Source: an uncultured Prevotella sp. (GTDB lineage Bacteria > Bacteroidota > Bacteroidia > Bacteroidales > Bacteroidaceae). Taken from it: a stretch of 22,627 nucleotides of DNA. Numbering within the stretch: the stretch's first letter is position 1; the number at the start of each line of letters is the position of its first letter. Location: positions 1 to 22,627 of the forward strand of contig CAKQDG010000031.1 of NCBI GenBank assembly GCA_934219025.1. Direction: 5' to 3'. Of this stretch, positions 13,967 to 19,525 are shown in pieces. Made by a program: the position numbers and the translations under genes. The notes under the pieces are model-generated. The model saw only the letters and a program-made list of their open reading frames with translations. It made no database searches and was not told the DNA's origin.

Positions 13967-14008
13967 AATTATGTGTCGATAAGATATAATCATTTTGCTA
14001 ATATCATG

Positions 14009-14016
14009 CAAATTTA
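14009..14016 (-). promoter_or_regulatory. -7 element for L,D-transpeptidase
   Basis: TAAATTTG on the minus strand, 42 bp upstream of the ATG at 13966, fits TAnnTTTG. There is no TTG at the expected -33 position, so this is a partial match. It supports the shorter start codon. Confidence 0.5.
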
Positions 14017-14048
14017 ATAATAAAAAGAGAAACTTGGGTATATAGTAT

Positions 14049-14083
14049 AAAAAAAACCGCAGTCGCTTCGCAGCGCCCACGGC
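14049..14083 (-). terminator. Terminator of the Ig-like/small-protein unit
   Basis: On the minus strand: a stem of CCG and CGCT pairing with AGCG and CGG across a GCGA loop, with wobble pairs between, then eight T residues. It lies downstream of the small gene at 14170-14397 and upstream of the L,D-transpeptidase promoter. Confidence 0.7.
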
Positions 14084-14169
14084 TCAATATTCTAAATTTA
14101 TGAAATAATTATTTATCGGTCACAGTATAGTTGTTCGTGTGGCTTTTATCTTTTACCGGTGTTCCGGAT

Positions 14170-14397
14170 TTAATTGTTCTCCTCATCCTCAAGTTCGTCG
14201 GCATCAAGGTCCCACAGGCTGTCGGATGTGCCTGAATTGTGTTTCTTGGATTCAAACAGACTACTGTCTGTGATAGTAGAAGAATTGTCGAGCGATGTTG
14301 ATGCTCCTGGCGATGCGGCAATCATCTGCTCCAGTTCAACTGCCATAACCCTTGTCTCTGGTTTGATATATCTTTTCATTTTCATTATCCTTTCCAT
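14170..14397 (-). CDS. Small acidic protein of the 'MKRYIKPE' type
   Basis: A protein of at most 75 aa. The conserved-looking part begins MKRYIKPETRVMAVELEQMI, followed by a Ser/Thr-rich middle and an acidic end (DLDADELEDEENN). Small proteins starting with 'KxYIKPE...V...' are very common in Prevotella and Bacteroides, usually next to exported-protein genes, and have no established function known to me. ATG codons at 14397, 14385 and 14379 are all possible; the last matches the family start best. It begins 9 bp after the stop of the Ig-like gene, so it belongs to that transcript. Confidence 0.72.
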   Translation of the reverse strand: MERIMKMKRYIKPETRVMAVELEQMIAASPGASTSLDNSSTITDSSLFESKKHNSGTSDSLWDLDADELEDEENN

Positions 14398-14406
14398 TAA
14401 AAGTTT

Positions 14407-16141
14407 TTATTTCACGTATTTCTTTCCATTCACGATAACGATGCCCTTGTAGCCCTCGCCAACACGCTGGCCGGAGATGTTGTACATAGGAGCGAGAGCC
14501 TTCTCGGCTTCAGCGTTTGAGAACGTTTCCTCGATGCCTGTGGTGTTTCCGTCGAAGGCATAGAATGTCTTGGCGTTGCCAGCAGAAGAAAGTTTCAAGT
14601 AGCCTTTCTTTGCCGGAATCGTAACGCCGTTCTGCACGAGTTTGAAGCCCGAAACGCCGTTCAGTGTTGCAAAGCCATAATAAAGGTTGTCGGCTGCCGT
14701 AACTGAGCCGTCAGAAATCTGGAGGGCGGTGGTAACGGCGGTTGCGGTTTCTGTGGAAGGAATCATAGCATAAGAAGTAGAAGCTTCACCTTTTACGAGT
14801 ACAGGAGTTCCTGCCTCTACTGTTTCACTTATCTCATTATAAGCAACTTTACCTTCTGCTTCATTCAATTCAATGGCGTATGCTGTCAGACCCACTGCGC
14901 TATAGTCTACTGCATCATCTGCTGCGTATGTAGCAAATGACGAAGCGGCTGTGGTTAGGGCTTTGTAATAAGTAACGGTAATTTTATATATTTTATTTGT
15001 GCCAGATGCAGTACAAGTAATACTGTTTGTATTTCCTGTCCAAATACTTGAATTTTTATCTTCATCTATAGATAAATTACCTTTATCTGCCTTCATAAGA
15101 GAAACATCATTCCCTTCGAACTGTATTTCTGCTATAATATAGTCTGAAGGTACAGATATTGTCATTTTAGCTTTATTGTATAATCTAAAGTCAATAACAT
15201 CATCTGTTCCTAAAAACCAACGTGTATTACCTGTTGTTAATATATTCACAATACCATTTCCCCATTTTGTTGATGAATCAAATTTATTATTATATGAGTC
15301 ATTATTCCTTGGCTTCAATCCTGACCCATAATCCAATTCACCGGAAGTAAAGTCGAATACACCATCTTCTACAGCTACAGGCTTCTTTACCTGTACAGTG
15401 TAAGAGACTGAAGAAGGAGCATAAGTATCATCTCCTGCATATTCAGCAGTAATAGTAGCTGTACCAGTCTTTGCGTTAAGTGTTACCTTTCCTGTATTAT
15501 CAACTTCTGCCACACTTTTGTTTGATGAAGAATATGTAATTTCAGCTCCGTCAATTGATGGAGTAAGAGTTGCAGGAATAGTAAATTCTTTGTCGTCTGT
15601 TGTCTTTGTTATTGTCTTGCCGTCATACTCTTCACCAAATGACAAAGAGGTTGTGGTTTTGGAAGGATCGGTTGATGTTTTGTCGTAAACAATTGTGAAG
15701 GAATTGCAATATAATGATTTTTTTGTAGAAGTTACTACAATTGTAATATCACCGTCTAAGTCGTTATCAAAAGTGAATTCTTTTTCTTCTTGAGTTGTAC
15801 TTACAACATCTTGTAAAGAATTATTAGTATATATAGATGTTTCTCCGACAGAAACACTTAAATTACCAGTTGTTGAAGAACCACTTTTCTTTATGTTTAA
15901 TTTTAAACTTTTTAGTACACCCGGAAGTCCTTTTATAGTAAGAGTCATTTTATTACCAGCTGTTATTTGACTCTTATTATTATATGTGTTCTTGAAAGAA
16001 ACTGTAATTCCTTCAATATTTTTAGATGCACTTACTGCCGTAGCAGAAGTTGGTGTGAAGACAATTTCATCCGCACAAATTACCCCCCCCCGCAAACACA
16101 ATCATCACGAGAGCCATTAGAAATCGTAGATAATGTTTCAT
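14407..16141 (-). CDS. Ig-like (Big2) exported protein, out of frame at a 9-G tract (577 aa if in frame)
   Basis: The ATG at 16141 starts a good signal peptide (MKHYLRFLMALVMIVFAG) that runs into nine G residues (16083-16091). In the present sequence the frame then hits TGA after four more codons. With eight Gs the frame joins ...GGVICADE and continues for 577 aa to 14407. Residues (in-frame numbering) of about 25-145 are an unassigned beta region. Residues of about 150-245 are a Big2-type Ig domain (ITYSSSNKSVAEVDNTGKVT). Residues of about 250-390 are a second unassigned beta region. Residues of about 390-577 end in the Prevotella-type sorting motif YNISGQRVGEGYKGIVIVNG. A TTG in the downstream frame (16101) lacks a signal peptide. 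It is a probable surface protein, either phase-variable, recently broken or mis-sequenced. Its 5' part is much richer in A/T than its 3' part. Confidence 0.8.
16083..16091 (-). repeat. Homopolymer G9 tract in signal-peptide codons
   Basis: Nine C on the plus strand (nine G in the gene). It lies in the signal-peptide coding region of the Ig-like gene and is one base longer than the in-frame length. Slipped-strand change of one base would restore the frame. Confidence 0.85.
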
Positions 16142-16205
16142 AATAAAATAAGTTTTTGTATGTTTATAAAAAAGTTAATGTATTCCGGATATTCTACAAA
16201 TTTGT

Positions 16206-16277
16206 TGCAAATGTAGACAGACTTTCCGAAATAAGCAAGCAAAAGCGTGAATATATGTTGATTGTAATGAAAATGTT
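16206..16277. repeat. 72-bp direct repeat, left copy
   Basis: Identical to 17244-17315 except for one base (A or T context at 16256-16257, ATATATG versus ATATGTG). The two copies lie 1038 bp apart and bracket the DUF3791/DUF3990 cassette. The stop codon of the last cassette gene begins at the right edge of this copy (16276-16278). The copy contains the leftward promoter for the Ig-like gene. Confidence 0.95.
16208..16238 (-). promoter_or_regulatory. Promoter for the Ig-like/small-protein unit (repeat copy 1)
   Basis: Minus strand: TTG (16236-16238), 20 bp, TACATTTG (16208-16215), an exact consensus fit. It gives a leader of about 60 nt to the ATG at 16141. It lies inside the 72-bp direct repeat, so the cassette operon has an identical promoter. 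Confidence 0.7.
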
Positions 16278-16488
16278 ATGCTTTGTATTTCCTATACAAA
16301 TCTGTTGGCCCCCAATGCCAAAGTTTTGTGTCTTCTTTTTCCAACTGCCTGTATGTGTCAGATAAATAGATTTGGAATATTGCATCGTCTATTTCTATAT
16401 TTTTTTCTTTTGCCAGCATCTCTGCCATCCAACTCAACTTGGAAGGCAAGAACAAATACAGATTGTCTTGTGTTACTGTAAGATTCAT
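16276..16488 (-). CDS. Small acidic protein, third gene of the DUF3990 cassette
   Basis: A protein of 70 aa with no signal peptide, predicted mostly helical. The segment DAIFQIYLSDTYRQLEKEDT then KLWHWGPTDLY resembles small proteins of the type 'aL..iY.S.ty..L.d..T.Ly..s..yly', which I recall next to DUF3791/DUF3990 genes. It starts inside the stop of the DUF3990 gene (TAATG overlap), implying translational coupling. It may be an antitoxin or accessory subunit; that role is inferred from position and size only. Confidence 0.75.
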   Translation of the reverse strand: MNLTVTQDNLYLFLPSKLSWMAEMLAKEKNIEIDDAIFQIYLSDTYRQLEKEDTKLWHWGPTDLYRKYKA

Positions 16489-16970
16489 TATTTTATCTCC
16501 TTTGCTTCGTCAAATGATAAATACTTTAGAGCCTCGCTCGTATGAAACAGATACTGGTCAACAAGCCTGTATGTCTTCAGTTCGTGAATTAATGACTGCT
16601 TGTCCAACACTCCACCTTCATACAATGCAAATGCCGCATATACTCTGTCGTTGGCAACAGGACCGTAAACCAAATCATAAGAGTGTGTAAAGCCCTGCTG
16701 GGTTCTGTTTGACATCACGAAATCTACCCATTCTTCAGACGGCTTTGCGAATATAAGTGAATTCAAATTCCTAATTGAACCAAAATCAAACTCATAGATA
16801 TTGACATACCCGCACTCTGCATTTCTCTCCTTCATCCTCCGTTTTACCCATGCTTCGGCCTGTTGGAAAGACGTTGTCGTGTAAAAACCCGCCCCGTAAT
16901 CCAAGGTTCTGTTCGTATTCTTTATTTCGGGTGAACTAACAATTTCCAGGCTACCATGATACAGTTTCAT
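16488..16970 (-). CDS. DUF3990-like protein, probable ADP-ribosyltransferase fold
   Basis: A 160-aa cytosolic protein. The N-terminus KLYHGS (His5) and the segment DYGAGFYTTTSFQQAEAW (Tyr30) match the opening of DUF3990 proteins, a family of the ADP-ribosyltransferase clan in which a His/Arg, a Tyr/Ser and a late Glu form the NAD site. SYDLVYGPVANDRVY (98-111) and QYLFHTSEALKYL (139-151) are further family hallmarks. The third catalytic residue cannot be assigned by eye; Glu146 is a candidate. The gene overlaps the upstream DUF3791-like gene by 4 bp (ATGA) and the downstream gene by 1 bp. An enzymatic toxin or protein-modifying enzyme is plausible, but that is inference. Confidence 0.85.
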   Translation of the reverse strand: MKLYHGSLEIVSSPEIKNTNRTLDYGAGFYTTTSFQQAEAWVKRRMKERNAECGYVNIYEFDFGSIRNLNSLIFAKPSEEWVDFVMSNRTQQGFTHSYDLVYGPVANDRVYAAFALYEGGVLDKQSLIHELKTYRLVDQYLFHTSEALKYLSFDEAKEIK

Positions 16971-17191
16971 TCTCGTTCCCCCTTTCTCAGTTTTATAAAA
17001 TCTCTGATGTCAGCCAAAATCCATTGCCAGCTTTGAGTGTGCAACACATCAAAATGTTCTTTCAAATATTCCAACACTCCATATTTTTTAAAGAGCATGG
17101 CAGTCTCTGCACCAGATATGCCAGACACATTCTTGTATTGCTCTATACAAAAAGACAGGAAATATGCAATATCTAAATTTCTCTTGTTCAT
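16967..17191 (-). CDS. DUF3791-like small protein
   Basis: A 74-aa protein, first gene of the cassette. FCIEQYKNVSGISGAETAML followed by FKKYGVLEYLKEHFDVLHTQ is typical of DUF3791. That family is mostly helical and usually sits directly next to DUF3990 genes in Firmicutes and Bacteroidetes. By analogy with toxin-antitoxin layouts it may neutralise or guide the DUF3990 partner; this is not established. The ATG at 17191 is 55 bp from the -7 element at 17246-17253. Its end overlaps the DUF3990 start (ATGA). Confidence 0.87.
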   Translation of the reverse strand: MNKRNLDIAYFLSFCIEQYKNVSGISGAETAMLFKKYGVLEYLKEHFDVLHTQSWQWILADIRDFIKLRKGERE

Positions 17192-17243
17192 TTTCCGTCA
17201 GCCGTTTTGGTTCAACTCCAACATCAAGTATATAAACATATAC

Positions 17244-17315
17244 TGCAAATGTAGACAGACTTTCCGAAATAAGCAAGCAAAAGCGTGAATATGTGTTGAT
17301 TGTAATGAAAATGTT
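17244..17315. repeat. 72-bp direct repeat, right copy
   Basis: Partner of 16206-16277 with one mismatch. It contains the promoter of the cassette operon. Weak similarity continues a few bases to the right (TTTGT-TTT-TCC). Removing one copy plus the cassette would leave a 217-bp divergent spacer between the Ig-like and MATE genes. Confidence 0.95.
17246..17276 (-). promoter_or_regulatory. Promoter for the DUF3791/DUF3990 cassette (repeat copy 2)
   Basis: Minus strand: TTG (17274-17276), 20 bp, TACATTTG (17246-17253), identical to the promoter at 16208-16238. The leader to the ATG at 17191 is about 48 nt. Confidence 0.68.
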
Positions 17316-17348
17316 GTTTGTGTTTATTCCCGAACCGCAATGTTTTAT

Positions 17349-17356
17349 TAATTTTG
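17349..17356 (+). promoter_or_regulatory. -7 element for the MATE gene
   Basis: TAATTTTG fits TAnnTTTG and lies 39 bp before the ATG at 17396. No clear TTG is present at -33. Confidence 0.5.
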
Positions 17357-17395
17357 CACTCCGTAATTCAATAGGTAAAAAAAATACAGGATAAA

Positions 17396-18745
17396 ATGCC
17401 AAGCATACACGACATGACCGTGGGTTCGCCCACGCGCAACATTTTGAAATTTGCCATACCGCTCATTTGCGGCTACGTGCTCCAACAGATGTATCTCATC
17501 ATCGATGCCGCCATAGTGGGGCGGTTTGTCAGCGTCGGCGCACTTGCCGCCGTGGGGGCGTCAACATCGGTGATGTTTCTCATCATGGGCTTCTGCAACG
17601 GGTGCTGTTCTGGCTTTGCCATCCCCGTGGCACAGGCATTCGGGGCAAGACAGCTCCCCACGATGCGCCATTACGTTGGCAATGCCCTGAGGCTCTCGAT
17701 AGCGTTTGCCGCGGTGATTACCGTGGCAACGTGTCTGCTCTGCTCGCCAATCCTCAGGATGGTGAACACGCCGGCAGACATTTTCGGCGATGCCTACACG
17801 TATCTAATCCTTCAGTTTGCCGCCATCCCGTTCACCTTCGGCTACAATCTTCTGTCGGGGCTTATCCGCGCCCTTGGCAATTCAAAGCAGCCGTTCTACT
17901 TCCTAATCTTCTCGTCGATAGCCAACATCGTGCTCGACTTCTTTTTCATCATCGTGATGCGCATGGGAGTGGAGGGCGCCGCCGTTGCCACGCTCCTTGC
18001 ACAGGCAATGTCGGCATGGCTGTGCTATACATATATAAAGAAGAAGATGCCGCTGCTTATACCCGCCGGCGAGGAGCGCCGCTACGACCGCCGCAAGGCG
18101 CTCACGCTCTTGAACAACGGCGTGCCCATGGGCTTGCAGTTTTCTATCACCGCCATCGGCAGCATCATGCTCCAGAGTGCCAACAATGCCCTGGGCACGG
18201 TGTATGTGGCTGCTTTCACCGCCTCGATGCGCGTGAAATACCTGTTCACCTGTGTGTTCGAGAATATCGGCGTTGCAATGGCAACGTATTGCGGACAGAA
18301 CATCGGCGCCCAAAGGCTCGACCGCATCCGCCAGGGCATCTGGGCGGCAATAAAGATAATGCTCGTGTATTTTCTGTTCACCTTAGTCATTATCCAGCCC
18401 TTTGCAGAATACATGATGATGCTCTTTGTAGACAGCAGCGAGGCTGCCATCATCAGCAATGCCTCGATGTTCATGCGCATTGCATGCTATTTCTATCCTA
18501 TGCTCGGACTGCTCGTAGTGTTGCGCTACAGCATCCAGGGACTGGGCTACAGCAACCTGTCGATGCTCTCCGGCGTGATGGAGATGCTGGCGCGCTGCGG
18601 CGTGAGCCTGTGGCTCGTGCCGGCACTGGGATTTCTTGGCGTGTGTTATGGCGACCCCGTGGCTTGGATTGCCGCCAACGTGTTTCTTGTTCCATGTATC
18701 ATATGGCTCATGCGCCATTTGGCAGGCAAAATCAGCATAAGATGA
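17396..18745 (+). CDS. MATE-family multidrug/metabolite exporter
   Basis: A 449-aa inner-membrane protein with about 12 hydrophobic segments in two similar halves (two MatE domains), the usual family size. The start MPSIHDMTVGSPTRNILKFA, then IPLICGYVLQQMYLIIDAAI and VGRFVSVGALAAVGASTSV, is the typical first-helix region. The second half begins around residue 235 (GVPMGLQFSITAIG). These transporters use a Na+ or H+ gradient to expel cationic drugs or metabolites; the substrate cannot be predicted. The gene has its own putative -7 element and is divergent from the DUF cassette. The ORF in another frame across most of the gene is a by-product of its base composition. Confidence 0.95.
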   Translation: MPSIHDMTVGSPTRNILKFAIPLICGYVLQQMYLIIDAAIVGRFVSVGALAAVGASTSVMFLIMGFCNGCCSGFAIPVAQAFGARQLPTMRHYVGNALRLSIAFAAVITVATCLLCSPILRMVNTPADIFGDAYTYLILQFAAIPFTFGYNLLSGLIRALGNSKQPFYFLIFSSIANIVLDFFFIIVMRMGVEGAAVATLLAQAMSAWLCYTYIKKKMPLLIPAGEERRYDRRKALTLLNNGVPMGLQFSITAIGSIMLQSANNALGTVYVAAFTASMRVKYLFTCVFENIGVAMATYCGQNIGAQRLDRIRQGIWAAIKIMLVYFLFTLVIIQPFAEYMMMLFVDSSEAAIISNASMFMRIACYFYPMLGLLVVLRYSIQGLGYSNLSMLSGVMEMLARCGVSLWLVPALGFLGVCYGDPVAWIAANVFLVPCIIWLMRHLAGKISIR

Positions 18746-18801
18746 CTCGGTGCTGGAGTTTTCTTAAAAAATACAAAATATGGAGAATTGTATTTATATT
18801 A

Positions 18802-18833
18802 TTGCGGTATGTTAGATAAAAGATGTACATTTG
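18802..18833 (+). promoter_or_regulatory. Orphan rightward promoter for candidate ncRNA
   Basis: TTG (18802-18804), 21 bp, TACATTTG (18826-18833): a near-perfect Bacteroidetes promoter 57 bp after the MATE stop. It is not followed by any reading frame before a terminator. The next gene (19713) has its own promoter. Confidence 0.6.
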
Positions 18834-18838
18834 CAATG

Positions 18839-19004
18839 AAATTTTTATAAGATTAAAGTACTATTCAACAAGCGGGGATTTATCTTATTTTAAATTCTAA
18901 AAAACGATGTGAATCGTTGCTTGTTTTTATAACTTCTTATGTAATTAGCGACATAAAGTAAATAGTAGAGTCCGGTGTGCGTGAGCATCCCGGACTTCTG
19001 TTTT
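18839..19004 (+). ncRNA. Candidate structured small RNA, about 165 nt
   Basis: Nested pairings can be drawn by eye. P1 is TACTATT (18859-18865) with AATAGTA (18961-18967). P2 is AACAAGC (18867-18873) with GCTTGTT (18919-18925). Inside P2 are the hairpins GGATTTA/TAAATTC (18876-18882 / 18891-18897) and AACGAT-GTGA-ATCGTT (18903-18918). Between P2 and the end of P1 is TTATGT/ACATAA (18937-18942 / 18951-18956). A terminator-like stem follows P1 directly. A consensus promoter sits just upstream. I do not recognise the RNA family; it could be a known Bacteroidales sRNA. Confidence 0.55.
18969..19004 (+). terminator. Terminator of the candidate ncRNA
   Basis: AGTCCGG (18969-18975) pairs with CCGGACT (18990-18996), with an inner TGC-GTGA-GCA hairpin, followed by TCTGTTTTG. 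The T-run is broken, so efficiency is uncertain. It may also end MATE read-through. Confidence 0.6.
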
Positions 19005-19029
19005 GATTATGGTACACTGATTTAAATTC

Positions 19030-19070
19030 CTTCCCCTCCACCGCCTCTCTATTCTTTGCAAACATAGAGA
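19030..19070. repeat. Solo arm of the GC-rich repeat plus short hairpin
   Basis: 19030-19047 matches the left arm of the inverted repeat at 11708-11725 at 17 of 18 bases. It is followed by the hairpin TCTCTAT (19046-19052) / ATAGAGA (19064-19070). This suggests a degenerate member of the same repeat family. Confidence 0.45.
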
Positions 19071-19104
19071 CGGAAAATAATAATAATTTTTTTTGCGAAA
19101 AATG

Positions 19105-19458
19105 CCCTCACACCCTCACCAAATAGAGACAACTCACTGATGACCACATACATAGACGTGTGAGGGTAAGTGTGAGGGGTGTGAGGGTAAGTGTGGATGC
19201 AGTTTGCAGTACCAAAATCATAAAACAACTTGGTACTGAAAGTGCAGCACTGTGATACCGAACAGAAACCATAGCTTTGTTCACAACAAACCGTGCTTCC
19301 TTCCCACCAGCCGCCACATTGTTATGCTTATGCTCCTTCAATCACTGTCGCAAACATTATTCATCACACCTGCCCTCACACCCCTCACCATTACCCTCAC
19401 CAATTCAAGCTATTGATATCCAATACGTTATACGCAAAGTGTGAGGGTGTGAGGGTAA
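19105..19458. repeat. Cluster of GTGTGAGGG repeats in alternating orientation
   Basis: Four blocks: CCCTCACACCCTCACC at 19105-19120; GTGTGAGGGTAA-type units, three in a row, at 19158-19196; CCCTCACACCCCTCACC and a further unit at 19373-19401; GTGTGAGGGTGTGAGGGTAA at 19439-19458. Blocks 1/2 and 3/4 are inverted relative to each other, so each pair can form a hairpin. The roughly 175-bp centre (19197-19372) contains the palindromic repeat at 19208-19249. No protein gene was found here; 18746-19712 otherwise holds only the ncRNA candidate and the promoter at 19526. Confidence 0.7.
19208..19249 (+). repeat. Dispersed palindromic repeat, copy 2
   Basis: A 42-bp element with perfect 8-bp arms AGTACCAA/TTGGTACT followed by AGTGCAGCA. 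It aligns without gaps to 8377-8418 (31 of 42 identical). Both copies lie in spacers upstream of genes for exported proteins on the same strand. Confidence 0.5.
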
Positions 19459-19525
19459 AAAGGTGAAAAACATGAATTATTAAAAACAGATTTACTGTAC
19501 AAACAAAAGATTTTTCGGAAATGTT

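Follow-up and report, generated by a model that had tools for sequence, protein, structure and literature searches.

The 22,627-nucleotide stretch of an uncultured Prevotella sp. analysed here (contig CAKQDG010000031.1, positions 1 to 22,627; the window) contains three small genes, for a DUF3791 protein, a DUF3990 protein and a third protein, between two 72-bp direct repeats. This segment is probably a mobile cassette of the kind catalogued as PADLOC candidate defence system PDC-M13, inserted with duplication of 72 bp of its target. As a candidate, the cassette kind itself is already known; the new finding is that locus-specific direct repeats, non-coding and unrelated to one another, often flank cassettes of this kind. 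The parts of the segment are:

17244..17315, minus strand: right 72-bp repeat, upstream of the cassette; TTG at 17276-17274, TACATTTG at 17253-17246; the DUF3791 start codon is 52 bp away
16967..17191, minus strand: DUF3791 protein, 74 amino acids; PF12668; PADLOC PDC-M13A
16488..16970, minus strand: DUF3990 protein, 160 amino acids; PF13151; PADLOC PDC-M13B; predicted ADP-ribosyltransferase fold, H5-Y30-Q139
16276..16488, minus strand: third protein, 70 amino acids; PADLOC PDC-M13C; modelled as four helices
16206..16277, minus strand: left 72-bp repeat, with the same promoter (TTG at 16238-16236, TACATTTG at 16215-16208) facing an Ig-like gene

The initial annotation had described three overlapping genes between two 72-bp repeats, each holding the same promoter, and both observations are confirmed by the coordinates. 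The repeats differ by one mismatch (71/72 identical), with a start-to-start offset of 1038 bp. The pair is not due to chance: among the direct repeats listed for 14000-19500, the second in length has only 32 nt and 72 % identity. DUF3791 and DUF3990 share a 4-bp ATGA overlap, and DUF3990 and the third gene meet at TAATG. The final stop codon of the cassette, earlier said to abut the left repeat, does touch it there and, more precisely, shares its last two bases with it. On the minus strand of each repeat stands TTG-N20-TACATTTG, with the TTG 20 nt upstream in both, which is the form of the Bacteroidota promoter; the right copy faces DUF3791 and the left copy the Ig-like gene. Four TACATTTGC-type sites were observed in the window (0.23 expected), including one minus-strand site per repeat, at 17253-17245 and 16215-16207.

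From comparison of genome sequences, insertion with target duplication is shown for a relative of the cassette at locus L177 (genome G1049). Here the cassette lies between genes identified by eye as flippase-like and ferredoxin, with a 30-bp sequence on each side of it; this repeat ends, again by eye, between the two boxes of the ferredoxin promoter. Both flanks were found in 12 of 25 other genomes of the genus, in 11 of which the spacer is uninterrupted and holds one repeat copy, with 1 to 7 differences from that of G1049. In the twelfth, G1115, the same spacer is occupied by an unrelated operon of 8.1 kb (L295, 2718-10927), which encodes secreted-type proteins (by eye) and has its own direct repeat, perfect over 43 bp and extending to about 62 bp if mismatches are allowed. 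Two further loci agree in part with target duplication, less completely than L177. At L078, tyrS was found in 13 of 14 relatives, the nearer of which have a similar promoter, and the cassette is absent from the 260 bases upstream of tyrS in these 13 relatives (by eye); the same upstream gene adjoins tyrS in G239, and in G128 a cassette segment of 80 % identity lies on a different contig. At L076 there is one relative; its argS leader matches the argS-side copy, with the alignment running into the gene (score 55), and gives a shorter alignment with the copy that precedes the cassette (score 27). As judged from these alignments, the repeats at L177, L078, and L076 are duplicated host sequence. 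Sites for L184 and L183 were unclean, due to repetitive surroundings or a cassette elsewhere, and L185 has too many similar places in its genus for an empty site to be judged. The earlier suggestion that the cassette arrived with a duplication is supported for a relative, at L177, and partly at L078 and L076; the window's repeats would have arisen by the same route as the duplication at L177.

The trio is present in the same order in the 80 nearest loci (best 80 of 377 confirmed species-genome loci), with different neighbours, in agreement with the earlier statement that DUF3990 often lies next to DUF3791. With the window included, genes 1 and 2 have the 4-bp overlap in 57/81 and genes 2 and 3 in 65/81. 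In more distant relatives (L185, L172, L171), the third gene is sometimes absent or the order altered. Of 393 genomes of the order, 52 have DUF3990 matches above the family cut-off (at most nine in one genome), and relatives occur in 74 plasmid records, all at <60 % identity. Three plasmid loci were inspected, in all of which DUF3990 is preceded by a DUF3791 gene and followed by a small gene; in pBF9343 the trio adjoins a zeta toxin gene. Mobility, as initially proposed, is thus supported for the family by patchy presence, other neighbours and plasmids, and for the window insertion would follow by analogy. Closely related cassettes at L040, L048, L050, L051, and L059 lie directly behind a tRNA-like gene and terminator (by eye).

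Repeats were sought around related cassettes by aligning the sequence before each cassette with that after it, the line being drawn at a score of 22 after the first set had been viewed; gene calls in the repeat scans were simple longest-open-reading-frame calls. Besides the window (score 69), 12 of 80 loci scored at least 22, shuffle maxima being 10-14, and the repeats differ in sequence from locus to locus. The first comparison, which left out 8 of the 80 loci with short flanks, gave 12/72 cassettes versus 5/150 operons of the same contigs at this score. The five bracketed control operons include a ParE-type pair, a weak GNAT match, a Fic gene, and an ATPase-like gene (the last by eye). In a larger set, from which 5 duplicates and 13 of 100 loci with short flanks were dropped, repeats scoring at least 22 with both copies non-coding were found for 21/153 cassettes and 2/178 same-contig control genes (29/153 and 8/178 when the non-coding filter was lifted); Fisher values ran from 8.5e-6 to 0.014 over thresholds from 16 to 40. 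Of 31 bracketed clusters found by a scan of 148 selected loci (1755 called genes), 22 contained DUF3990 and nine did not; 40 unselected 20-kb stretches (669 genes) yielded three clusters, none with DUF3990. Clusters lacking DUF3990 are about equally frequent in both, 0.5 % of genes in the selected loci and 0.4 % in the unselected stretches, therefore only the enrichment of DUF3990 is claimed.

Many of the bracketed sets without DUF3990 have, descriptively, the look of toxin or defence genes. Further sets bracketed by non-coding direct repeats are present at L023, L026, L005, L020, L188, L189, L017, and L234, the cargo of these eight loci being HEPN/MNT pairs, MNT, Fic, a weak Abi-like match, a YhcG nuclease, a weak GNAT match, and AlbA_2. 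In an unselected stretch (L370, 759-5290), a 46-bp perfect repeat surrounds a HigBA-like pair and an integrase (by eye). At L024 (8844-13897), five promoter repeats of 44-81 bp lie just after a DUF3990 cassette, in a row whose members include a ParE-type pair and, by eye, a RelE-like gene.

A TAnnTTTG box is present in both copies in only 3 of the 21 filtered repeat pairs; the remaining pairs resemble terminators or plain spacer. Promoter duplication, part of the initial annotation, is seen in the window, which is among the clearer promoter cases, and is rejected as a universal rule. A promoter is just one kind of duplicated target.

The proteins support assignment to a known candidate kind of cassette. 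The adjacent overlapping genes match the models PDC-M13A (3.8e-34), PDC-M13B (5.6e-63), and PDC-M13C (9.9e-32), the assignment to PDC-M13 meaning matches to these three models in one operon. The order of the three genes is that kept in the 80 nearest relatives; the PDC-M13 models are, however, silent on repeats and mode of insertion, and the anti-phage role attached to them is a database prediction. For DUF3990, the ADP-ribosyltransferase clan named in the initial annotation is supported by structure prediction of the 160-amino-acid protein, the nearest solved folds to the model being ParT/MbcT/RES toxins. Conservation among 172 aligned sequences is 99 % for H5 and 100 % for both Y30 and Q139, and this H-Y-Q triad places the protein in the H-Y-[EDQ] clade of the superfamily (clade names from PMC9503650), H5, Y30, and Q139 being the likely catalytic positions.

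By sequence, DUF3990 has no PDB match up to E 1, and against solved structures the best match is E 0.61 for DUF3791 and E 0.011 over 27 residues for the third protein. A Pfam scan gave no family for the third protein, and a Foldseek search of its model against the PDB gave a best match of E 2.4, none reaching the E 0.001 cut-off. That DUF3791 and the third protein are paralogues is unsupported (hhalign probability 1.9 %).

RES-Xre, ParST, and MbcTA are likewise small operons with an NAD+-type toxin fold, and theirs are the nearest solved folds to DUF3990; they differ from the window in that its partners are DUF3791 and a protein of no family, its triad is H-Y-Q, and sequence similarity to the PDB is lacking at the level given above. 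The DUF3990 Pfam family also sits at the C-terminal end of Rhs proteins in Serratia and Enterobacter (PMC4524185; PMC10763514), whereas the DUF3990 protein of the window is free, lacks a delivery domain, and shares its operon with two partners. Mobile two-gene toxin-antitoxin-like modules (Makarova 2009; PMC2701414) resemble the cassette in being small, patchy, mobile operons, and recent insertions or deletions of a HEPN-MNT module were traceable in close relatives; bracketing direct repeats were not seen described there, and the term 'direct repeat' is absent from the main text. The cassette family has the toxin-antitoxin-like traits of small overlapping genes, patchy presence, and plasmid occurrence. 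Small toxin and defence operons are highly mobile, although in many of them no machinery for this is evident. In integron cassettes and transposon target-site duplications, passenger genes are bounded by direct repeats and single-copy empty sites exist; the repeats of this family, however, are locus-specific and 25-132 bp long, and no transposase or integrase was recognised among the three cassette genes between the window's repeats (overlapping antisense open reading frames were outside the scan). Transposon target duplications are usually shorter than the stretches that appear duplicated around these cassettes.

Several observations weigh against insertion with target duplication. An empty site for the window was not found among the matches listed when its flanks were searched in 399, 398, and 348 genomes, none of the window's species; this absence is weak evidence, because two candidates were scored per genome and only listed matches were covered. 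The best MATE DNA match in the genome search was 77 %, and the Ig-like region gave short matches only, none over the repeat, among those listed from 348 genomes. Control operons are also bracketed, as the first comparison shows, and 132 of the 153 relatives have no qualifying repeats, therefore the signature is absent or has decayed in most of them. The cassette segments shared by L010 and L016 and by L001 and L002 include a repeat copy, which fits repeats carried by the element, and the L185 repeat resembles many genomic sites in its genus, which fits homologous recombination. Mechanisms may be mixed across loci. Homologous recombination is the basis of single-crossover integration, in which a DNA circle already bearing the cassette and a single repeat would have recombined with the chromosomal copy, and reversal would excise it. 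Exactly the anatomy of the window would result, repeats with identical copies of 42, 79, and 87 bp exist (L078, L185, and L232, the copies at L232 overlapping called open reading frames), and the segment common to L010 and L016 begins at the repeat. The donor must, however, already have a spacer of the host next to the cassette (the promoter of ferredoxin, tyrS, or argS, for example), therefore the first insertion at a site is unexplained. Differing repeat lengths at one site are also hinted at by L177 and L295. The window's repeat was not seen in viral contigs (exact core pattern), in plasmids (blastn), or among matches listed from 348 genomes at two scored candidates each; as a phage or plasmid element it is rejected on the viral and plasmid results. 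Single-crossover integration is considered unlikely for the window.

Somewhat less likely still is that the repeats belong to the cassette, as relics of a tandem row of cassettes sharing a leader or terminator from which one member was lost. At L002 the repeat is a hairpin resembling a terminator, which L001, a nearly identical sister of L002, has behind the cassette in other surroundings, and at L024 five copies of one promoter repeat separate different small operons; at L177, L078, and L076, however, the repeat is native host sequence in relatives without a cassette there. It is very improbable that the segment is an old, stable part of the genome, its promoter duplicated by local rearrangement without mobility. 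The missing empty site for the window would agree with this, but the cassette is patchy in the order, its relatives have other neighbours and include plasmid copies, and the window's repeats are still nearly identical. Stable vertical inheritance in all relatives, which the initial annotation held to be incompatible with mobility, is not what is seen among relatives of the cassette family.

The genes on either side of the cassette are:

14407..16141, minus strand: gene for an Ig-like (Big_2) protein of secreted type, behind the left repeat; reading frame disrupted at the nine-G run 16083-16091
17396..18745, plus strand: MATE transporter gene, the divergent neighbour on the other side of the cassette

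The natural start of the Ig-like gene is probably ATG 16141, with the signal-peptide-like MKHYLRFLMALVMIVFA; the frame from it is disrupted across the nine-G run, in the signal-peptide region on the minus strand, and the listed open reading frame starts instead at the in-frame TTG 16101. The run may reflect phase variation or an assembly error. The promoter of the left repeat does face this gene, as initially proposed, with the gene start corrected from TTG 16101 to the probable ATG 16141. Elsewhere in the window, an inverted repeat is present at 19160-19195 and 19365-19400 (36 nt, 89 % complementary, 169 nt apart).

In insertion with target duplication, the origin favoured here, a cassette in which two small partner proteins flank DUF3990, a putative effector of the ADP-ribosyltransferase type, would have entered the spacer upstream of the Ig-like gene, duplicating 72 bp of it. 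One promoter copy would then drive the cassette while the other would still drive the Ig-like gene. DUF3990 may use NAD+ against the cell or an invader, with DUF3791 and/or the third protein restraining or triggering it. The insertion enzymes would act from elsewhere, because none was recognised between the repeats. It is possible, though on present evidence doubtful, that a general Bacteroidales insertion route, acting from outside, puts small toxin or defence operons into core-gene spacers and duplicates 25-130 bp; selection would favour insertions that spare the neighbour's promoter, reuse of one site would build promoter-separated rows of operons such as that at L024, and the window's cassette would be one product.

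Neither bracketing nor target-duplicating insertion of such modules was found described in literature searched by titles and abstract openings, a scope in which absence is unproven. A locus-specific duplicated target with a clean empty site is a mark of insertion and makes the inserting agent testable. Duplication also explains how a module can lie directly upstream of tyrS, argS, or ferredoxin without silencing them, and the bracketing pattern is worth systematic study.
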